This document shows positions 21,774 to 31,003 of a stretch of DNA of 64,000 nucleotides, piece by piece. The notes below the pieces were generated by a model. The model was given only the letters and a program-made list of their open reading frames with translations. It did no database searches and was not told where the DNA came from. Origin of the DNA: Peterkaempfera bronchialis. GTDB taxonomy: Bacteria > Actinomycetota > Actinomycetes > Streptomycetales > Streptomycetaceae. Position numbers and translations under genes: made by a program. The stretch lies in assembly GCF_003258605.2 (NCBI RefSeq), contig NZ_CP031264.1, forward strand, positions 1,984,001 through 2,048,000, written 5' to 3'. Every line of letters starts with the position of its first letter. Positions within the stretch are counted from its first letter, which is position 1.

Positions 21774-23287
21774 TGACCACCCCCGTCGTGGACGACGTTC
21801 CGGAGGTCCTCCGGATCGGCCCCGCCCGCCTCACCGCCGGGCTGGACTCCGCCGTCCGACTCGACTACACCGCGCACCAGCTGACCCACGGCCCGCTGCC
21901 CCGCTACGACCTGGACGGGCTGATCGCCCTGGCCGAGCGGATCAAGCTCAAGGGCAAGGGCGGCGCCGGCTTCCCCTTCGCCCGCAAGCTCCAGGCGGTC
22001 CTGAAGACCGTGGAGCGGCAGCGCATCGCCCCCGCCGTGGTGGTCAACGCGACCGAGGGCGAGCCCGGCAGCGCCAAGGACCGGATGCTGCTGGCCCGCG
22101 CCCCGCACGTGATCCTGGACGGGGCGAGCCTGGTCGCCGACGCGCTGGGCGCCGCCTCGCTGGCCATCGGCGTGGACGAGGGCAGCCCCGGCGTCACCTC
22201 CATGCCGCCCGCCGTGGCCGAACGCCGCTGGGACATCCCGGTCCGGGTGGTCTGCCAGCCCGAGCGGTTCACCTCCGGCGAGGGCGGCTCCCTGGTACGC
22301 GGGGTCAACGGCCTGCCCGCCATCCCGCCCAGCCGCAAGATCCGCACCTCGGACGGCGGCAACGGCGGCGTCGACGGCCGCCCCACCCTGCTCTCCAACG
22401 CGGAGACCTTCTCCCAACTCGGCATCGCCGCCCGGCTGGGGCCCGACGCCTACACGGTGATCGGCACCAAGGCCGAGCCCGGCACCGTACTGCTCACCAT
22501 CAACCGCCCGGACGCCAAGCGGCCGCTGATCGTGGAGACCCCGGCCGGCACCCTGCTCGGCGACGTCCTGGACGCCGCCGGGGTCTCCCCCGGCCAGGGC
22601 GTGCTGGTCGGCGGCTACCACGGCATGTTCCTGGACGCCGACGCCGCCGTGAAGGCGCCCTGCTCCCGGGCCGGAATGTCGGCGGCGGGCGGCTCCTTCG
22701 GCGCCGGCATCGTCATCCCCATCCCGGAGGACACCTGCCCCCTGGGGGAGGCCGCCCGGATCGCCGACTGGCTGGCCGTGCAGTCCGCCGGGCAGTGCGG
22801 CCCCTGCCGGATGGGCCTGCCCAACCTGGCCCGGGTCCTCACCGACCTCGCCAACGGCGGCGGCGGCACCCGCGCCCTGGAGGAGGCCCGCCGGATCGCC
22901 GGCGGGGTGATCGGCCAGGGTGCCTGCTCCCACCCGGACGGGTCCTCCCGCTTCATCCTCTCCGCGCTCACCGCCTTCACCGACGACCTGGCCAACCACA
23001 GCCTGCGCGGCGGCTGCGGCCGACGGGTGCGCGGTGTGATGCCGCTCTCCCCCTGGGGCCCCGGCCAGGACCAGGACCACCTCAACGGCCCCACCCTCGT
23101 GGTCGACTGGCAACGCTGCCGGGCCCACGGCCTCTGCGCGGCCCTGGCCCCCGAACTCTTCAGCCTGGACGCCCACGGCTTCCCCGTGGTCTCCAACGCC
23201 CCGATCCCGGTCTGGCTGGAGAACGACGCCCAGCGAGCCGTCAACCAGTGCCCAGCCCTCGCCCTCCGCTTCAACCGCCCCCGCTGA
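21773..23287 (+). CDS. NuoF-like flavoprotein fused to a C-terminal [3Fe-4S]-type ferredoxin
   Basis: The 504-residue protein starts at ATG 21773, overlapping the previous stop, so translation is coupled. Residues 55-300 match the NuoF/Nqo1 fold: LKGKGGAGFPFARK (59-72) and NATEGEPGSAKDR (92-104) form the FMN/NADH site. An SLBB domain follows around 252-295. The iron-sulfur segment reads SAGQCGPCRMG: Cys342 and Cys345 are present, with Cys385 as the distal ligand, but the first Cys of the usual motif is Ala339. Residues 440-500 are a ferredoxin with C449-x5-C455...C493-P, the [3Fe-4S] spacing. It probably oxidises NAD(P)H and feeds the cytochrome b encoded upstream. Confidence 0.85.
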   Translation: MTTPVVDDVPEVLRIGPARLTAGLDSAVRLDYTAHQLTHGPLPRYDLDGLIALAERIKLKGKGGAGFPFARKLQAVLKTVERQRIAPAVVVNATEGEPGSAKDRMLLARAPHVILDGASLVADALGAASLAIGVDEGSPGVTSMPPAVAERRWDIPVRVVCQPERFTSGEGGSLVRGVNGLPAIPPSRKIRTSDGGNGGVDGRPTLLSNAETFSQLGIAARLGPDAYTVIGTKAEPGTVLLTINRPDAKRPLIVETPAGTLLGDVLDAAGVSPGQGVLVGGYHGMFLDADAAVKAPCSRAGMSAAGGSFGAGIVIPIPEDTCPLGEAARIADWLAVQSAGQCGPCRMGLPNLARVLTDLANGGGGTRALEEARRIAGGVIGQGACSHPDGSSRFILSALTAFTDDLANHSLRGGCGRRVRGVMPLSPWGPGQDQDHLNGPTLVVDWQRCRAHGLCAALAPELFSLDAHGFPVVSNAPIPVWLENDAQRAVNQCPALALRFNRPR

Positions 23288-23426
23288 ACCCTTCGGTCCT
23301 GACGCCCGGTATCCCCTGTTCCACGCTGCGGCTGCCGCGCAGGCTCCGGCGCAGCACCACCCGCATCACCGACCTGGTCAAGGCCAGCTGACGGAACCAC
23401 CGGGCCGTGATGTAGCGTGCACGCCC

Positions 23427-24302
23427 ATGCCCATCCCCTCCCTGCTTCTGGACCGGCTGCGCCGGGCCGGGCTGAGCGATGCGGTGTCGGTGACCCCGGC
23501 CGAGGGGGGAGTGGCTGCCCTCGCGGGTATCGCGACGCGCCGCGAGGGTCCGCCGGTGTTTGTGAAGGCCTTCCGGGAGACCCCTGCTGACGGCCTGTTC
23601 GCAGCGGAGGCCGAAGGGCTTCGGGCGTTGCGCGAGCTGGGCGGGGCCGCCACCCCGGAGGTGGTGTACGCGGGCCGGGATGTGCTGGTGCTGTCCGTTC
23701 TGGAGGCGCGTCCGGCCCGGGAGGACTTCTGGGAGCGGCTCGCCCACACTCTCGCGCGGCTGCACACCACCACCGTGCACGACCGCTTCGGCTGGTCCCG
23801 CGACAACTGGCTGGGGCGCTACCGGCAGGACAACACCTGGGACACCGACGGTCATGCCTTCTTCGCCCGCAGCCGCCTGCTCCGCTGGCTGCCGGAGCCC
23901 CGGGTACGGGCGGCGCTGGACGAAAGGGACCGGCGGGCGCTGGAGCGGCTGTGCGAGCGGCTGCCCGAACTGCTGCCTTCCCGGCCGGCCTGCCTGACCC
24001 ACGGTGACCTGTGGGCGCACAACATCCTCGCGACCCGGGACGGGCAGCCCGCTCTGATCGACCCGGCCGTCTCCTATATGTGGGCCGAAGTGGATCTGGC
24101 CCATCTGTGGAGTTCGCCGCACCCGCCCGAAGCGAAGCGGTTCTTCGCGCGGTACGCGGAGCTGACCGGGCTCGACGACGACTGGCCTGCCAGGATGCCG
24201 ATCATCCAGTTGCGGCAGCACTTGGCCGTCATCGCCCAGTACGAGCACGACTGGGGTGCGGCGGACCAGGTCCGTGCCACGCTCAGGCCGTTCCGTTCGT
24301 AG
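23427..24302 (+). CDS. Fructosamine kinase family protein
   Basis: A 291-residue kinase-like protein. Members of this family phosphorylate sugar amines on glycated proteins or small molecules, marking them for deglycation, and resemble aminoglycoside phosphotransferases. Lys47 in PPVFVKAF is the likely ATP-binding lysine. The Brenner-type motif LTHGDLWAHN (190-199) supplies Asp194 as catalytic base, and IDPAVSY gives the metal-binding Asp212. HGDLW is the specific hallmark of the fructosamine kinase family. It lies alone; a small hairpin at 24323-24342 follows. Confidence 0.9.
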   Translation: MPIPSLLLDRLRRAGLSDAVSVTPAEGGVAALAGIATRREGPPVFVKAFRETPADGLFAAEAEGLRALRELGGAATPEVVYAGRDVLVLSVLEARPAREDFWERLAHTLARLHTTTVHDRFGWSRDNWLGRYRQDNTWDTDGHAFFARSRLLRWLPEPRVRAALDERDRRALERLCERLPELLPSRPACLTHGDLWAHNILATRDGQPALIDPAVSYMWAEVDLAHLWSSPHPPEAKRFFARYAELTGLDDDWPARMPIIQLRQHLAVIAQYEHDWGAADQVRATLRPFRS

Positions 24303-24322
24303 CGAACCCGCCGCCAGGCGAA

Positions 24323-24342
24323 ATTCACCTATTCGGGTGAAT
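24323..24342 (+). terminator. Candidate terminator after the fructosamine-kinase-like gene
   Basis: A 7-bp stem ATTCACC/GGTGAAT with a 6-base loop lies about 20 bases after the stop. It is much more AT-rich than the other terminators in the window, consistent with an imported segment. Confidence 0.5.
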
Positions 24343-24494
24343 CCTATTGGCTTGTTCGTGCAAGGGACGATCGTCGGCTGGATAGTGAGGAGGCTGCGGG
24401 ACGCCGATCATTACCGAATTCCATTTGCGCCATCCGATACCATCTTTCGCGTTCCTCGCTGTTCGTGGTCTCAATTCGCCCCAAGGGAGGACGC

Positions 24495-25400
24495 ATGGTC
24501 GGCACAGCGCATCAGAACGCCGGTGTGGAAGGCGTGGAAGGGGGTGTCGGCCTGACCGCTCTCCTGGTCGCCGCGGCACGGGCGATCGAGACCCACCGCC
24601 GCGACAGCCTGGCCCGGGACGTCTACGCAGAGCACTTTGTGCTCGCCGCACCGGCGTCCGCAGGCTGGCCGGTCCGCATGCAGCAGGTGCCGGACGGGGA
24701 CGCGGACCCGCTCTGGGGGCGCTTTGCGCGCTACTTCGGTCTGCGGACGAGGGTCCTTGACGACTTCCTTCTCCGGTCGGTGCACGCCGGTGCCCGCCAA
24801 GTGGTCCTGCTCGGGGCGGGGTTGGATGCGCGGGCGTTCCGACTCGATTGGCCTGCCGGCTGCGTGGTCTTCGAGATCGACAGGGAAGGCGTGCTGGCGT
24901 TCAAGCACAAGGTGCTCGACGGGCTGTCGGCCACCCCGAAGGCGGCGCGCGTACCGATCCCGATCGATCTGCGCGCCGACTGGGTCCAGGCGTTGACCGA
25001 CGCCGGCTTCGACCCGGCCGCACCGAGCGTCTGGCTGGCCGAGGGGTTGCTGTTCTATCTGCCCAACGCCGCCGAGACCTACCTCATCGACATGGTGGAC
25101 CAGTTGAGCACCGGGGGAAGTGCTCTCGCATTCGAGGTCAAGCTCGAAAAGGACCTGCTGGAATACCGCGACAGCCCGATCTACACCTCGACGAAAAACC
25201 GGATCGGCATCGACCTGCTCACCCTGTTCGACGGAGAGCCGCGGCCCGACTCCGCAGGTGATCTGGCGGGCAAGGGCTGGTCCACCTCGGTCCACACCCC
25301 GTTCGACTTCACCCGTCGGCACGGACGCGGCCCGCTGCCCGAGCAGAACGACGCTCTGGCGGGCAACCGGTGGGTGTTCGCGAACAAGCCCCGGCCGTAA
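24495..25400 (+). CDS. SAM-dependent methyltransferase, leucine carboxyl methyltransferase family
   Basis: A 301-residue enzyme of the LCMT/PPM family, which often O-methylates carboxyl groups of small molecules or peptides. ATG 24495 follows GGGAGG by six bases. The SAM-binding motif is LLGAGLDARAFRLDW (about 105-119), followed by FEIDREG and by AEGLLFYLPNAAE, both typical of this family. The substrate is unknown. It converges on the alcohol dehydrogenase of the MfnB operon with a 58-base gap, so it may methylate a product of that pathway, for example a furan carboxylate; this link is inference. The 192-base gap before it is unusually AT-rich. Confidence 0.88.
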   Translation: MVGTAHQNAGVEGVEGGVGLTALLVAAARAIETHRRDSLARDVYAEHFVLAAPASAGWPVRMQQVPDGDADPLWGRFARYFGLRTRVLDDFLLRSVHAGARQVVLLGAGLDARAFRLDWPAGCVVFEIDREGVLAFKHKVLDGLSATPKAARVPIPIDLRADWVQALTDAGFDPAAPSVWLAEGLLFYLPNAAETYLIDMVDQLSTGGSALAFEVKLEKDLLEYRDSPIYTSTKNRIGIDLLTLFDGEPRPDSAGDLAGKGWSTSVHTPFDFTRRHGRGPLPEQNDALAGNRWVFANKPRP

Positions 25401-25458
25401 CTCCCGCCGTCAGACGGCCCGGTGCGTCTCCCCCCGGGATGCACCGGACGAGGCTCCC

Positions 25459-26547
25459 CTACGGAACCAGGACGGGTTTGACCACCCGGCCCGCGTCACA
25501 GTCGCGTTCGGCCTCGTTGATGTCGGCGAGCGGATACGTACGGATCAGCTGGTCGAAGGGGAACCGCCCGGCCTGCCACAGTCCGGTCAGCCGGGGAATC
25601 AGCAGTCCCGGCACCGCGTCCCCTTCGCAGATATGGGAGATCCTTCGGCCCCGGTCCAGCGCCCCCGGTTCGAGCGGCAGCGCGGTGTGGAGCCGCGCCA
25701 CCAGGCCGAGGTGGCCGGTCGGGCGCAGGGCCCGGAGCGCGTCGTTGATCAGCTGGGCGGAGCCCGTGGTGTCCAGCGCGTACTGCGCGCCACCATCGGT
25801 CAGTCGCTGGATGCGGTCGGGCAGGTCGCCCGATGCGGCGTACAGCGGGATCGCACCGAACCGCTCGGCGAGGGCCAGCCGTTCGGGGTGCCGGTCGACG
25901 GCCACGGTCACCGCCCCGGCGGCGGTGGCCGCCATCACCGCGGCCAGGCCCACCGCCCCCGCGCCGAAGACCGCGATGGTGTCGCCGGGGCCGACGCCGA
26001 AGGAGTTCATGACCGCTCCGGCGCCGGTGAGGAAGCCGCAGCCGAGCGGTCCGAGCAGTTCGACGGGCAGCGCGGGATCGACCCGGACGGCATTGCGGGC
26101 CGCGACCACCGCGTACTCGGCGAACGACGACTGGCCGAACCACCGGGGGGCCAGTTCGCCCCCGGCTGCGTCGGTGAACCGCGCCGCGTTCTCCTTGCGC
26201 CCGCCGAAGAGGTTGAGCGAGGCGAAGGAGTCACAGTAGGCCGGGGCCGCACCCATGCAGTTCCGGCAGTGTCCGCAGGAGTCGAAGCTCAGCACGACAT
26301 GGTCGCCGACGCTCAGGCCGGTGTCCGGGCCGCCCGTCTCCACCACCACCCCGGCCCCCTCGTGGCCGAGCACCGCCGGCAGCGGTGAGCGGCCCGCCGA
26401 ACGCCGGACCGCGAGATCGGTCCGGCACATCCCACAGCCCGCGATCCTGACCAGGAGCTCGCCATCGGCCGGCCCCGCGTCCAGGATCACCTCCTCGACG
26501 GCGAATCGGTTCTCGTACGAGCGCAGTACCGCCGCGCCGAACCTCAT
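25459..26547 (-). CDS. Zinc-dependent alcohol dehydrogenase, aryl-alcohol type
   Basis: A 362-residue medium-chain dehydrogenase that interconverts an alcohol and an aldehyde with NAD(P). Catalytic zinc ligands are Cys41 (CRTD), His62-Glu63 (GHEGAGVV) and the Cys in PLGCGFLTGAG. The structural zinc site is C91-x2-C94-x2-C97-x7-C105. The nucleotide-binding loop is VFGAGAVGLAAVMA. The long central segment and FLTGAGAVMN resemble benzyl/aryl alcohol dehydrogenases. ATG 26547 overlaps the upstream aldehyde dehydrogenase stop (ATGA) and follows GGAGG, so the two are translationally coupled. A likely substrate is the hydroxymethyl group of a furan made by the MfnB homologue. Confidence 0.9.
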   Translation of the reverse strand: MRFGAAVLRSYENRFAVEEVILDAGPADGELLVRIAGCGMCRTDLAVRRSAGRSPLPAVLGHEGAGVVVETGGPDTGLSVGDHVVLSFDSCGHCRNCMGAAPAYCDSFASLNLFGGRKENAARFTDAAGGELAPRWFGQSSFAEYAVVAARNAVRVDPALPVELLGPLGCGFLTGAGAVMNSFGVGPGDTIAVFGAGAVGLAAVMAATAAGAVTVAVDRHPERLALAERFGAIPLYAASGDLPDRIQRLTDGGAQYALDTTGSAQLINDALRALRPTGHLGLVARLHTALPLEPGALDRGRRISHICEGDAVPGLLIPRLTGLWQAGRFPFDQLIRTYPLADINEAERDCDAGRVVKPVLVP

Positions 26548-27953
26548 GGTCGCGCCTCCTCCGGACGATGCACCACGAACGGCCTGAGGTTCCCGTAGAG
26601 CCCCCACGGCCCGCCCGCGACGCCGACACCGCTCTCCTTGATGCCCGCGAAGGGCTGGGCGAGGGACAGTTCGGCATGGTGGTTGATCCACACCGTTCCG
26701 CACTCCAGCCGGTCGGCCACCGCCTCGGCCCGGTCGAGGTCGGTCCCCCATACCGAGCCGCCCAGCCCGAAGTCGGTGTCATTGGCCGCCTCGATGGCTT
26801 CGTCAAGGCTCCGGTACGGCAGCACCGGCAGGACCGGACCGAATTGCTCCTCCGTCACCACCGGGCTGTCGGGCGGGACCTCGGCCAGGATCGTCGGGGC
26901 GAAGAAGTAGCCCGGTCGGTCCAGCCGGTGGCCACCGGCCACGGCTCGGGCGCCGTCCGCCAGGGCCTGGGCCGTGTAGCGCTCGACCCGGGCCAGTTGG
27001 GGGGCGTTGTTGACCGGCCCCAGCTGCGAGCCCGGGTCGATCCCGGGTCCGACGACCGCGGCCTTCGCGCGCTGCGCAAGGGCCTCGACCACCTGGGAGT
27101 AGAGCCGGGCCGGAGCGTAGACGCGCTTGACCGCCATGCAGACCTGCCCGCAGTTGCGGAACGCCGCCCAGAAGAGCCGGTCGGCGATCCGCTCCACATC
27201 GACGTCCTCCAGCAGGATGGCGGCGTCGTTACCGCCCAGCTCCAGGGTGACCCGAGCGAGCGAGGCCGCCGCGCCCTCCGCGACGGCCCGTCCGGTGGGA
27301 ATCGAACCGGTGAAGGTCACATGGCGCATCCCCGGATGGGACGCGAGGCGGGCGCCGAGGGGTTCGCGACCGGTGACGACCGTCAGTACGTCCTCGGGGA
27401 GGGCGGCGGAGATGACGGACCCCAGCAGCCGTGTGGCGAGGGGTGTGAACGGAGAGGGCTTGAGCACCATCGTGTTGCCTGCGGCGAGCGCGGGAGCGAA
27501 CTTCGCCGACGCGAGCTGGAGGGGAAAGTTCCACGGAACGATCGCGGCGACGGGCCCCAGCGGGCGCCAGCGGACCTCGCTGCGTACCGGCCGACCGTCG
27601 GTGATCGGCTGGGGCCGGGGGTCCAGCTCGGCGAAGTAGCGCAGGCGGGCCGCCGTACGGGCGACCTCCGCATACGACTCCGCCAGAGGTTTGCCCTGTT
27701 CACGGGTGAGCAGCGGAGCGAGGTCGACCCCGGCCGCCTCCACGGCGTCGGCCGCCGCAAGCAGCGCGGTGGTGCGGGCGGCGGGGTCGGCCCGCCAGCT
27801 TCGCCATGCCCCGTGGGACCGGTCGACGACGGCGTCCAACTCGTCCGGTTGCTGGTCGGGAGCCTCGTCGAAGACCTCACCCGTTGCCGGGTCGAGGACG
27901 GCGAAGCGGTCGCCGCAGGTCCCGGCCGCGCGACGGGGCTGACGTGTCGGCAT
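26544..27953 (-). CDS. NAD(P)-dependent aldehyde dehydrogenase
   Basis: A 469-residue enzyme that oxidises an aldehyde to a carboxylic acid. Conserved elements are PWNFP (Asn142), KPSPFTP (Lys165), FTGSIPTG (coenzyme loop), LELGGND (Glu238) and GQVCMAV (catalytic Cys272). I chose ATG 27953, nine bases after the stop of the MfnB gene; the upstream extension of the frame only overlaps that gene. Gene order MfnB, aldehyde dehydrogenase, alcohol dehydrogenase with nearly no gaps suggests one transcript. The substrate may be the formyl group of the furan product. Confidence 0.9.
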   Translation of the reverse strand: MPTRQPRRAAGTCGDRFAVLDPATGEVFDEAPDQQPDELDAVVDRSHGAWRSWRADPAARTTALLAAADAVEAAGVDLAPLLTREQGKPLAESYAEVARTAARLRYFAELDPRPQPITDGRPVRSEVRWRPLGPVAAIVPWNFPLQLASAKFAPALAAGNTMVLKPSPFTPLATRLLGSVISAALPEDVLTVVTGREPLGARLASHPGMRHVTFTGSIPTGRAVAEGAAASLARVTLELGGNDAAILLEDVDVERIADRLFWAAFRNCGQVCMAVKRVYAPARLYSQVVEALAQRAKAAVVGPGIDPGSQLGPVNNAPQLARVERYTAQALADGARAVAGGHRLDRPGYFFAPTILAEVPPDSPVVTEEQFGPVLPVLPYRSLDEAIEAANDTDFGLGGSVWGTDLDRAEAVADRLECGTVWINHHAELSLAQPFAGIKESGVGVAGGPWGLYGNLRPFVVHRPEEARP

Positions 27954-27961
27954 GCCGGTGG

Positions 27962-28717
27962 TCAACTCACGGCGGTGACGGCGGCTTCGTATTCTCGGGC
28001 ATGCCGGTCCATCTCCGCCCGGAAGGCGGCCACCAGGTGCGGCTGAATCCTCCCGGCGTTGCGGTCGCCCCCCTCGCAGACCGCCCCGCGCACCCCCACG
28101 ATGTCCGTGCCGATGCGGGTCAGCTCGCCGAGGTCTCCCGCCTTGACGCTGCCCGCGAGGGCAGCGAGCAGCTCGGCCTCGTGGGCCAGCCGGACGAACT
28201 CCGCGCAGACGTCCGGCGGAACGTGGTCGAACAGCCGTGTCCCGTCCTTGATCGCGGTGTCGAGCATGGCCGCGTCGGCGCCGGAGCGGAGGGCGATGTC
28301 GGGCAGTGCCAGCGGGTTGACGCAGCCGATCCGGTGGGCGTCGGCGTAGCCCGAGGCGACGACAAACGCGTCCGGCCGGTAGTCCTTCACTGCCCGGACG
28401 ACCCCTCGCATGACATCGACGGCCTGTTCGGGCGTCGTGCATCCATAGAGGCCGACCTTGATGTACGTGGCCCCGGAGACAGCTGCACCGAGCGCCGCCT
28501 GGGCCACCGTGCCGGGCTTGTACGGTACGTCCCCCACCGTGGCGGACACCGGCTTGTCCGCCGGGACCGCTTCGCGGATCTCCCTGATGACCCACGGGAA
28601 GTTCGCGCCGAGCGAGCCCTCGTCGGGCTTCTTGACATCGACGATGTCAAGGTGCTCCGCCGCCTTCGCGCAGTCGAGGGCCTCCTCGACGCTGTCGGGG
28701 GAGATGAGAAGCAACAA
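27962..28717 (-). CDS. MfnB-like (5-formylfuran-3-yl)methyl phosphate synthase (DUF556)
   Basis: The archaeal enzyme condenses two glyceraldehyde 3-phosphates into a furan aldehyde phosphate for methanofuran. The product is 251 residues (archaeal enzymes about 235). I chose TTG 28717 because AAGGAG sits six bases upstream and family members begin near (M)LLLISP; an in-frame GTG at 28744 has no such site. A TIM-barrel with [20 protein letters not shown] (Asp27, Lys29), DKP (Lys55), YIKVGLYG (Lys87) and LDTAIKDG (Asp153, Lys157) keeps the residues I recall as catalytic in MfnB. It heads an operon with two dehydrogenases and is divergent from a HAD phosphatase. Confidence 0.88.
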
Positions 28718-28949
28718 CCTGGACTCCTTCCGCCGCACGTCCACCTGCCAAAGGTCAGGTGTGCGGAGTCGCCTGGATCACTTGCGGTCTGCTCATCATT
28801 GCTGCGGCCCGGTGGCCACCGGTAGAGCGCGCGGAGTCCGAACGGGTCGTTGCCACGGCGTGCCCGCCCCCCAGTGCGCCGTCCACGCCGGTTTGCCGCC
28901 GACAGCGTCCATCTGGGCGCCGATGAGCCGACGCTCTACGCTGTCCCCC

Positions 28950-29681
28950 ATGTCCACGGACAACGCCGCCTCTGGCCAAGGTCGTTCGGATCGACATCTC
29001 GTCCTCTGGGATGTGGACCACACACTCGTGAGGATCGGTGGCGGGGTGAGCCGCGCCATCTACGCCCAGGCATTCGAGAGCGTGACCGGTCGCCCGCTGA
29101 ATGCGCTGGCCGACATGTCCGGTCGGACCGAGCGGGCGATCACGGTGGACACACTGCGCCTCAACGGCATCGATGAGCCGGAAGTGCGCTTTGCCGCCTT
29201 CTACTCCGCACTGGCGACAGCCGCCGAACAGCAGGCGGACCGGATACGGGAGTTCGGCATCGTCCTGCCCGGCGCCCGTGAAGCGTTGGACTCCTGTGCA
29301 GCCCACAACATCGTCCAGTCCGCAGCCACCGGCAACATCCGCCCCATTGCCATGACCAAGCTCACCACCCTGGCGGTGGGTGCAGACCTCGACTTCTCCG
29401 TTGGCGGCTACGGAGATGACGGCAGCGACCGGGCCGACCTGGTCCGCCAAGCACGCAAGCGGGCTGCGGAGAAGTACGGTCACGACTTCGCCGGCACCCG
29501 GACCGTCGTCGTCGGCGACACACCCCACGACGTTCGCGGCGCCCGGGATGCCGATGCACTGGCCGTGGCGGTCGCCAGCGGCAACAGCACCGCCGAGGAG
29601 CTGCGCCAAGCCGGCGCAGACATCGTGCTGACCAGCCTCCGGGACTTCCCCGTCCACTGCGGCGAAGCGCTCGGCTGGTGA
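28950..29681 (+). CDS. HAD-superfamily phosphatase
   Basis: A 243-residue hydrolase that probably removes phosphate from a small metabolite. Motif I is LWDVDHTL (nucleophile Asp21, acid/base Asp23); motif II includes SAATGNI; motif IV is VVVGDTPHDV. A helical cap lies between motifs I and II. ATG 28950 has little ribosome binding site, but TACGCT eight bases before it could be a -10 box of a leaderless transcript. It is divergent from the MfnB operon across about 230 bases, so it is a candidate to dephosphorylate the furan phosphate. Phosphoglycolate or a nucleotide are alternatives. Confidence 0.88.
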   Translation: MSTDNAASGQGRSDRHLVLWDVDHTLVRIGGGVSRAIYAQAFESVTGRPLNALADMSGRTERAITVDTLRLNGIDEPEVRFAAFYSALATAAEQQADRIREFGIVLPGAREALDSCAAHNIVQSAATGNIRPIAMTKLTTLAVGADLDFSVGGYGDDGSDRADLVRQARKRAAEKYGHDFAGTRTVVVGDTPHDVRGARDADALAVAVASGNSTAEELRQAGADIVLTSLRDFPVHCGEALGW

Positions 29682-29722
29682 TCACACCTCGGCTTCGGCC
29701 GCGAGCCCTGCCGGACAACCAA

Positions 29723-29750
29723 CAGGGGCCGCCCTGGCGGACGGCCCCTG
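29723..29750. terminator. Hairpin between HAD phosphatase and tRNA-Ala
   Basis: A 9-bp stem CAGGGGCCG/CGGCCCCTG with a 10-base loop lies between the convergent phosphatase and tRNA genes and can serve both. Confidence 0.7.
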
Positions 29751-29760
29751 AAAGTAAAAG

Positions 29761-29833
<73 letters not shown>

Positions 29834-30020
29834 TTGACCTGCGGTGCCGCCGGTTCTGGTCCCTGCTGGTTCCCCCCGGCGACATCGCTTACTCTACACG
29901 TTCGCGAGAGCGGTCCACGAATCCGTATCCGGCTCGGCCGGGCGTCGGACGGCGCCCCGCGCCGGGCGACGCCCCCGAGCCTCCCCTACGAGCGGTTGGC
30001 GAGTACGCTGTAAGCGAGCG

Positions 30021-30710
30021 TTACTCAGGGTGACTGAGAGCCTGGGCTGGCCGAGCCCGGCACCACGGCGAGGGCAGCGGGTGGACCCCGCCCGCCGGAG
30101 TGCGACCGGCCGCCGGTCCTGCGGGAGAGGGGTCATCCCGGGCCTCCTCCGCGATGCCGCTGCTGCCCAGGTCGGCGAACGTGAGCCGGGGCATCGACGC
30201 GATGTCGATGCCGTACCGGCGGTAGACGAGCGTGGTGTTCTCACTGGTGAGGTCCTCCACCAGCAACCCGATCGCGTGGACGGTCTCGTGAACGTGTTCG
30301 CCGCTGCTCCCCTCGACCTCCAGGTACGGGGGGATGAGCGGCCAGTGGTCGATCTCGATGGCCGCTCCGAGCAGCGACCAGGACGATCGGCGGTTCTCCT
30401 GGTACGCCTTGGGCTGGTATCCGAGCTTGCCGAGAATGGCGTTGGTGGCGTCGAAGTCGCCGACGGTGGTCTCGGTCTCCCTCACACCGTCGATGGCTTC
30501 GGGGTCCGAGATCTCCTTGACGCACAGGGTCACGGCGGTGCCGGTGTCCCGCAGGCGGACCCACGTCCCGGCCTTGCCGGGGATGTCGTAGACATAGCGG
30601 CGCTGGAGCCGGTCCCCGTGGTGCTCGGCGCCCGCCTCCGCCAGCGCGGCGCGGATCTTCTCGGGGTCGACGTCAAGGATCTTCGCCTCGTACTCGACTT
30701 CGGTGCTCAT
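30021..30710 (-). CDS. CYTH-domain protein (class IV adenylate cyclase/CyaB-like)
   Basis: A 229-residue protein of the CYTH triphosphate tunnel family, which acts on nucleoside or inorganic triphosphates. ATG 30710 follows GGAGGG. The family signature ExExK is present right at the start as EYEAK (Glu6, Glu8, Lys10). Further tunnel residues appear in YVYDIPGKAGTWVRLRD, TLCVKEI and IEIDHWPLIPPYLEVEG. The spacing resembles CyaB-type proteins more than thiamine triphosphatases. The last 35 residues are Pro/Ala-rich and may be a read-on tail. It lies between identical tRNA-Ala genes and is transcribed in the same direction. Confidence 0.85.
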   Translation of the reverse strand: MSTEVEYEAKILDVDPEKIRAALAEAGAEHHGDRLQRRYVYDIPGKAGTWVRLRDTGTAVTLCVKEISDPEAIDGVRETETTVGDFDATNAILGKLGYQPKAYQENRRSSWSLLGAAIEIDHWPLIPPYLEVEGSSGEHVHETVHAIGLLVEDLTSENTTLVYRRYGIDIASMPRLTFADLGSSGIAEEARDDPSPAGPAAGRTPAGGVHPLPSPWCRARPAQALSHPE

Positions 30711-30813
30711 ATGAACTTCCCTCCAGGGTGCGGGAGTTGCGAGGCAAGGGAGCTGAGTCTGGAGGGCAAGCTGCCGCAGACGGAGCCTGCGGGGTGTCTG
30801 GGCGGGGATGCGG

Positions 30814-30847
30814 AACGGGCCGCCTCCCGTGGGGGAGGCGGCCCGTT
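30814..30847 (-). terminator. Terminator after the tandem tRNA-Ala pair
   Basis: A perfect 15-bp stem (AACGGGCCGCCTCCC and its complement) with loop GTGG lies 10 bases downstream of tRNA copy 2 on the minus strand. Confidence 0.85.
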
Positions 30848-30856
30848 GCGTCGCTG

Positions 30857-30929
<73 letters not shown>

Positions 30930-30930
30930 G

Positions 30931-31003
<73 letters not shown>

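Follow-up and report, generated by a model that had tools for sequence, protein, structure and literature searches.

In methanofuran synthesis, the reaction of MfnB, the (5-formylfuran-3-yl)methyl phosphate (4-HFC-P) synthase, is followed by amination and coupling steps. Excerpts of the literature describe the MfnB product as a furan with carbon substituents at positions 2 and 4 (PMC6604932), name Lys27, as Schiff-base residue, and Lys155 in the Methanocaldococcus jannaschii enzyme (PMC6604932, PMC11365854), and mention an MfnB-type enzyme in a Burkholderiaceae region alongside formylmethanofuran genes (PMC9088363). A small furan diester, dimethyl furan-2,4-dicarboxylate (C8H8O5), was reported in 2013 from an aziA2 mutant of Streptomyces sahachiroi and had previously been noticed in microbial headspace extracts (PMC3778384, which lists the headspace study as Citron et al. 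2012). Here, we analyze a locus of Peterkaempfera bronchialis (Streptomycetaceae), lying in a window of 64,000 nt of its single-contig 7.09-Mb genome, in which an mfnB gene stands together with genes for an aldehyde dehydrogenase, a zinc alcohol dehydrogenase and an S-adenosylmethionine (SAM) methyltransferase of the LCM type. These genes appear to form a mobile four-gene cassette whose end product would, on balance, be dimethyl furan-2,4-dicarboxylate.

That the four genes are a real unit is as good as certain. A scan of named genomes for MfnB gave 287 relatives, the best 80 of which (86-94% identical, from Streptomyces, Kitasatospora and Actinacidiphila records) were kept and, together with the window, make up the 81 loci referred to below. 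Neighboring genes were counted by tblastn within 9 kb of mfnB at identity thresholds of 40-55%; in loci L030 and L032 the sequence stops before or within the downstream genes. The aldehyde dehydrogenase gene adjoins mfnB in 76 of the 80 relatives, the alcohol dehydrogenase gene in 78 and the LCM methyltransferase gene in 78. Because they recur together in nearly all of these loci, the four genes are a co-inherited module and not a chance arrangement. Their surroundings vary between loci, and the EF-hand family is the only other neighbor cluster that exceeds six of the 81 loci. The four proteins also diverge together: over 69 loci, Mantel r is 0.75-0.82 in all six pairwise comparisons, and the best of 500 permutations reached 0.16.

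An earlier note on this DNA had described a five-gene pathway, the fifth member being a HAD phosphatase. The five genes do lie there, tightly packed within the operon (an 8-nt gap between mfnB and the aldehyde dehydrogenase gene, a 4-nt overlap between the two dehydrogenase genes), and their coordinates bear out a methyltransferase gene that converges on the operon and a HAD gene that diverges from it. In 67 of the 78 loci in which the gene caller separated it, the methyltransferase gene is on the mfnB strand; it is convergent in 11, the window included. The conservation of the neighborhood that the note had looked for extends to the four genes and stops at the HAD gene, which was rejected as a member of the unit because it stands beside mfnB in 0/80 loci; a five-gene pathway would exist in this strain only, if at all. 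A fructosamine-kinase-like (FN3K) gene was also rejected as a member (0/80), and the CYTH gene was likewise found near mfnB in none of the 80 loci. The mfnB open reading frame (ORF) extends to a GTG at 28744 (27962-28744); the most likely start is the TTG at 28717, because it sits 6 nt downstream of GGAAGGAG and a start codon is kept at this position in 80/80 relatives (TTG 53, GTG 26, ATG 1). The features of the locus are collected in Table 1.

Table 1. Features in and around the mfnB cassette, with positions counted in the window.
Feature	Position	Strand	Remarks
mfnB, (5-formylfuran-3-yl)methyl phosphate (4-HFC-P) synthase	27962..28717	-	251 aa from TTG; PF04476, NF002573, PDB 4rc1
Aldehyde dehydrogenase	26544..27953	-	PF00171, 465.6 bits
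Zinc alcohol dehydrogenase, benzyl-alcohol-dehydrogenase-like	25459..26547	-	PF08240 and PF00107
LCM-type SAM methyltransferase	24495..25400	+	PF04072, 188.8 bits; TIGR00027, 262 bits, above cut-off
HAD hydrolase	28950..29681	+	PF12710, 54.1 bits; same island, not a cassette member
Fructosamine-kinase-like (FN3K) gene	23427..24302	+	PF03881, 131.9 bits; same island, not a cassette member
Leader/promoter region of mfnB, conserved, non-coding	28718..28882	-	Alignments and covariance model
Island of ~6.5 kb	23273..29759		From backbone gene to tRNA-Ala; absent from two genus mates
3'-end remnant of DDE (IS5-like) transposase gene, island edge	23328..23385	+	Dispersed 58-bp repeat
Three tRNA-Ala(ggc) genes	29760-29833, 30856-30929, 30930-31003	-	ARAGORN; insertion hot spot

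The assignment of MfnB is well anchored, with 269.3 bits against PF04476 (cut-off 22.4), 395.6 bits against the equivalog model NF002573 (cut-off 341) and 278 bits against the structure of the M. jannaschii enzyme MJ1099 (PDB 4rc1). The catalytic Asp and Lys residues that the note expected are in place: D36, K38, K96, D162 and K166, numbered on the 260-aa version of the ORF, align with 4rc1 and are invariant in 81/81 loci, no tested position being substituted on proper alignment. Beyond the equivalents of Lys27 and Lys155, the remaining positions are likewise catalytic residues of the family. Since the family is the same and the residues are kept, the cassette enzyme would be expected to perform the same first step as MfnB of the methanofuran pathway. 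The genome holds one PF04476 gene, and the other two genomes of the genus hold none. Methanofuran itself was judged unlikely as a product, as the formylmethanofuran:tetrahydromethanopterin (H4MPT) formyltransferase family PF01913 goes unmatched throughout the 7.09-Mb genome, whereas it does pick up two methanogens in a set of 14 controls. The claim that other methanofuran genes are lacking is thereby upheld genome-wide for PF01913; the other mfn families (mfnA, C, D, E, F) were not searched. PMC10364804, considered as a DUF556 paper, was set aside, its matching passages concerning DUF5565.

A divergent MfnB (L124:2110-9158, genome and contig G070:C19) is 53% identical and falls below the NF002573 cut-off. 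By eye, Glu and Arg replace the lysines that correspond to K38 and K96. Its neighbors include an isopentenyl-phosphate-kinase-like gene (NF040647, above cut-off); genes for an aminotransferase, a UbiA-like prenyltransferase and a ligase-SDR-like fusion also stand beside it. This locus is read here as a different pathway.

The other three enzymes are also conserved in their putative functional residues. In the aldehyde dehydrogenase, the Glu of ELGG and the Cys of GQVC, presumably the catalytic residues, are kept in 70/70 aligned sequences; in the alcohol dehydrogenase, a Cys and a His that we assume to be zinc ligands are kept in 78/78. Full coverage of the aldehyde dehydrogenase is found in 70/80 loci, and the L039 copy is not in one open frame. 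In L028 and L075, the alcohol dehydrogenase gene directly follows mfnB; L075, from Streptomyces sp. PsTaAH-137, lacks the aldehyde dehydrogenase, whereas the cassette is intact in S. griseus (L074), S. lavendulae (L049) and S. parvulus (L058). Among the 202 PDB sequences matched by the alcohol dehydrogenase, the second-best is 1f8f, a benzyl alcohol dehydrogenase (260 bits), a likeness that would suit an aromatic carbinol as substrate. In the case of the LCM methyltransferase, an AlphaFold2 model (pLDDT 91.7) is closest in fold to ML2640 and Rv0731c (Z 33.4-34.7), followed by the carboxyl methyltransferases LCMT-1 and PPM1 (Z 21.5-23.6) and TYW4 (19.8-22.1), the next score being 17.1; Foldseek returns the same groups in the same order. 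This place of the predicted fold next to carboxyl methyltransferases favors carboxyl methylation, without amounting to proof. No characterized small-molecule carboxyl methyltransferase of the LCM family is among the 50 matches listed by structure, which excludes nothing.

Altogether, it appears very probable from the protein families involved that the cassette makes a 2,4-substituted furan. In the route that we infer, MfnB would join two molecules of glyceraldehyde 3-phosphate to (5-formylfuran-3-yl)methyl phosphate, as its family and kept residues suggest, and the phosphate would be removed by a general cellular phosphatase. The benzyl-alcohol-type and aldehyde dehydrogenases could then oxidize the hydroxymethyl and formyl groups to furan-2,4-dicarboxylate, both carboxylates of which the LCM enzyme, judging from its family and fold, would methylate to a neutral, volatile diester. 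The 2,4 pattern of the MfnB furan, taken through dephosphorylation, two oxidations and two methylations, leads to dimethyl furan-2,4-dicarboxylate, which is why this compound is proposed. The note's general idea of an MfnB route to a small furan ester instead of methanofuran is thus supported by the four-gene unit, the kept residues and the lack of a PF01913 match; it was right in outline, wrong on the phosphatase, and is here sharpened to a named, known compound. S. sahachiroi has no record among the best 80 of the 287 MfnB relatives, and no paper linking MfnB to the diester was found in the open-access literature searched, outside which most subscription papers lie.

Three features of the cassette go beyond the earlier note: its leader, its frequent EF-hand neighbor and its mobility. 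A conserved leader certainly exists, comprising ~165 nt upstream of mfnB that could be aligned in 80 of 81 loci (alignment A1, leaving out L070) or in 69 (A2, leaving out L011, L020, L029, L034, L047, L050, L051, L054, L061, L070, L071 and L075). It begins at its 5′ end with ACGGCGCACT, followed by CGCGCGCTCTACC, then AATGATGAG, and then a nested stem-loop (28766-28733) that directly precedes the Shine-Dalgarno sequence (28731-28724); across loci, the middle motif reads CGCGCG-C(C/T)CTACC. When its final 99 nt were turned into a covariance model (R1, 28712-28810), trained on the 69 loci of A2, the model matched before mfnB in 81/81 loci; none of the 14 remaining matches in 96 sources exceeds 19.6 bits. 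In 19/19 MfnB genomes tested, R1 finds one site each, at mfnB, the weakest being that of G199 (29.6 bits), and a wider leader regulon was accordingly rejected. Seven genomes without mfnB gave one match (26.9 bits), at G002:C156:255239-255297, ~11 kb from the empty site in that genome; it may be chance or a leftover, and is not dismissed because its score is close to that of the weakest true match.

Rfam assigns the leader to no known RNA family; its only hits were the three tRNAs and, over the tRNA pair, a YrlA match that stays below threshold (44.7 bits against 69). RNAalifold predicted only four pairs from the long alignment of the leader, and these hardly covary, for which reason the stem-loop seen by eye was tested separately. 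Its double-change cells number 31 in the fitted alignment and 23 in the plain one, against 13.7 in shuffled alignments for each; in the fitted alignment, six pairs are changed on both sides, against 3.9 when shuffled, with 24/500 shuffles as high. In the true register, 86-90% of cells are paired, against at most 56% when slid. The leader is therefore likely, as far as its sequence can tell, to form an RNA structure, and presumably controls mfnB expression.

The EF-hand protein, of ~177 aa, is encoded within 9 kb of mfnB in 25/80 loci, on either side and in either orientation. The gene is present in 39/60 genomes with mfnB and in 26/237 without (Fisher p 8e-17, uncorrected for kinship), G070 with its sub-threshold MfnB being counted among the latter. 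In the 39 genomes that have both, the two genes lie at most 15 kb apart in 15 (chance ~0.1), share a contig at a greater distance in 13 and are on different contigs in 11; in the window genome, the distance is 1.7 Mb. There (L099:7949-9850, G000:C1:288000-303000), the EF-hand gene adjoins a gene for a 633-aa protein, homologs of which occur near the SGAir0924 plasmid cassette (56%, annotated as NAD-binding lipoprotein) and in cassette locus L050 (57%). Twenty EF-hand loci away from the cassette were examined, ten from mfnB genomes and ten places in seven genomes without mfnB, some of them syntenic and thus not independent cases: an LCM methyltransferase is nearby in seven, another SAM methyltransferase in six and neither in seven.

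The natural reading of these neighborhoods is that the EF-hand protein would be a partner of small-molecule methylation, and in the furan cassette it may perhaps aid methylation or export. In five of these loci (L109, L112, L115, L117, L118), the EF-hand gene occurs with Iso_dh-like, isochorismatase-like and LCM genes, the families having been scanned for L117; this looks like a sister module that would supply another acid for methylation. In six (L101, L103, L110, L113, L114, L116), a SAM methyltransferase of the Methyltransf_23 type (family scan on L103) is close by, a second family so paired. A broader idea, quite unlikely as a whole, is that streptomycetes share, via plasmids and chromosome-end islands, a set of small methyl-ester modules, each combining an EF-hand protein and a methyltransferase (LCM or another) with interchangeable acid-supplying enzymes; the MfnB cassette, with its own leader RNA, would be the furan version, and the diester a calcium-linked volatile signal.

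The distribution of the cassette is patchy. NF002573 is exceeded in 60/297 Streptomycetaceae genomes, a sample that partly overlaps the 80 relative loci, and in a sample of the phylum PF04476 is above cut-off in 5/396 genomes, three of them Streptomycetaceae. Two actinobacteria outside this family have an MfnB at 45-46% identity, around which (10.8 and 14.2 kb examined, one of the two genes lying <1 kb from a contig end) no aldehyde or alcohol dehydrogenase, LCM or EF-hand match was found. An MfnB match is present in 36 plasmid records, and a close MfnB (87-92% identity) in 13, from Streptomyces and Streptantibioticus, two of which belong to one S. cattleyicolor strain. All three of the 13 plasmids that were viewed carry the four genes and an adjoining EF-hand gene, and in one, of 70.7 kb, Tn3 transposase genes are nearby. 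Of 15 single-contig genomes with mfnB, seven of whose lengths were rounded for measuring the distance to contig ends, 10 have the gene in the outermost 10% at either end; the window genome is not among these.

In the window, the cassette resides in an island that also holds the transposase remnant, the FN3K gene and the HAD gene. The backbone match to two genus mates (L119 in G002, L120 in G001) stops at 23272 and picks up at the tRNA-Ala at 29760, the distance from the backbone gene to the first tRNA-Ala being 93 bp in G002 and 127 bp in G001. Four copies of the 58-bp repeat at the island edge, in three stretches examined, lie at the 3′ end of transposase-like ORFs (type assigned by eye). The tRNA-Ala cluster forms a hot spot for insertions, since two other genes stand between its copies in G001 (L120:761-3791), judged by eye to encode an MFS transporter and a regulator. 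The CYTH gene lies between the tRNA-Ala copies of the window (29760-31003).

Several observations weigh against the picture drawn so far. The authors of PMC3778384 suggested a polyketide or pyruvate origin of the diester, as opposed to the triose-phosphate route proposed for the cassette, and no phosphatase is conserved with the four genes. The LCM/TIGR00027 family is broad, and the nearest structures carry no functional name. The aldehyde dehydrogenase is missing or truncated in eight of the 80 loci (L013, L015, L022, L025, L028, L031, L069, L075), for which reason loci without an intact copy may manage without dedicated oxidation or may make another product. The EF-hand association is partial (25/80 loci), the window cassette has no adjoining EF-hand gene, and the co-occurrence test takes no account of kinship. 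As for the leader, covariation is only moderate: in the plain alignment, four pairs are changed on both sides against a shuffled mean of 3.9 (328/500 as high), and the inner hairpin is missing in L034, L047, L051 and L061.

The loss of the aldehyde dehydrogenase from eight loci that retain mfnB, the alcohol dehydrogenase and LCM lends some weight to a product of the same furan route that is less oxidized or singly methylated, such as methyl 4-(hydroxymethyl)furan-2-carboxylate or a formyl ester, the diester then being one strain's variant. Such a product is unlikely though plausible, since most loci keep all four genes, with the aldehyde dehydrogenase mostly at full coverage, and the diester known from Streptomyces is fully oxidized. 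It has also to be considered that this strain might use the island HAD hydrolase as its dedicated phosphatase, having acquired it along with the cassette. The route requires a dephosphorylation, the gene diverges from mfnB inside the same ~6.5-kb island, and the two genus mates without mfnB are also without a HAD match at E 1e-20. Yet its absence beside mfnB in every other locus makes this improbable, as do homologs of 41-46% identity in six mfnB-less genomes of the family (G003, G005, G006, G008, G010, G011), because of which it looks like a member of a general family; homologs of up to 57% occur in genomes of the same order, the mfnB status of which was not searched. Finally, it is highly improbable that MfnB performs some other aldol-type reaction, or that the operon detoxifies aldehydes, with no furan ester formed: the tested catalytic residues are invariant, the equivalog cut-off is exceeded, and a methyltransferase, for which detoxification has no need, travels with the unit. 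This last alternative draws on the dehydrogenases, which fall below every NCBIfam equivalog cut-off shown, and on the literature searched, in which no biochemistry of an actinobacterial MfnB was found.

The furan diester thus remains the preferred product, and the proposal links an orphan metabolite of Streptomyces to genes in a way that can be tested. An enzyme of an archaeal coenzyme pathway would apparently have been re-used for a small ester in about one-fifth of the family genomes sampled, and a biological path leading from triose phosphate to furan-2,4-dicarboxylate would be of interest for bio-based furan monomers. Mobile spread, a constant leader and the EF-hand association point to a function worth transferring between strains.

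Comparison with known systems places the cassette among several partly similar ones. The methylenomycin furans of S. coelicolor (MmfL/MmfH/MmfP) are, in the relevant excerpts of PMC6604932, likewise small furan carboxylic acids of Streptomyces. In their system, an MmfL-type reaction condenses dihydroxyacetone phosphate and a beta-ketoacyl thioester, whereas the four cassette proteins match only the PF04476, Aldedh, zinc-ADH-related and LCM families; the family scan found no MmfL/AfsA-type condensing enzyme among these four, the rest of the genome not having been searched. The cassette LCM protein is alike in sequence and fold to the mycobacterial TIGR00027/LCM proteins ML2640 and Rv0731c (36-40% identical), and shares its fold, at ~15% identity, with LCMT-1, PPM1 and TYW4, eukaryotic enzymes that act on PP2A or tRNA. 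With the methanofuran pathway of M. jannaschii (MJ1099) and of methylotrophs, the cassette has in common the MfnB family and its kept catalytic residues; it differs in having dehydrogenases and a methyltransferase instead of the amination and coupling steps, and in a genome that lacks a PF01913 match. The S. sahachiroi diester, itself a Streptomyces product, is substituted at positions 2 and 4 and has two carboxyl groups, both methyl-esterified, as would be expected of a product of the four enzymes.

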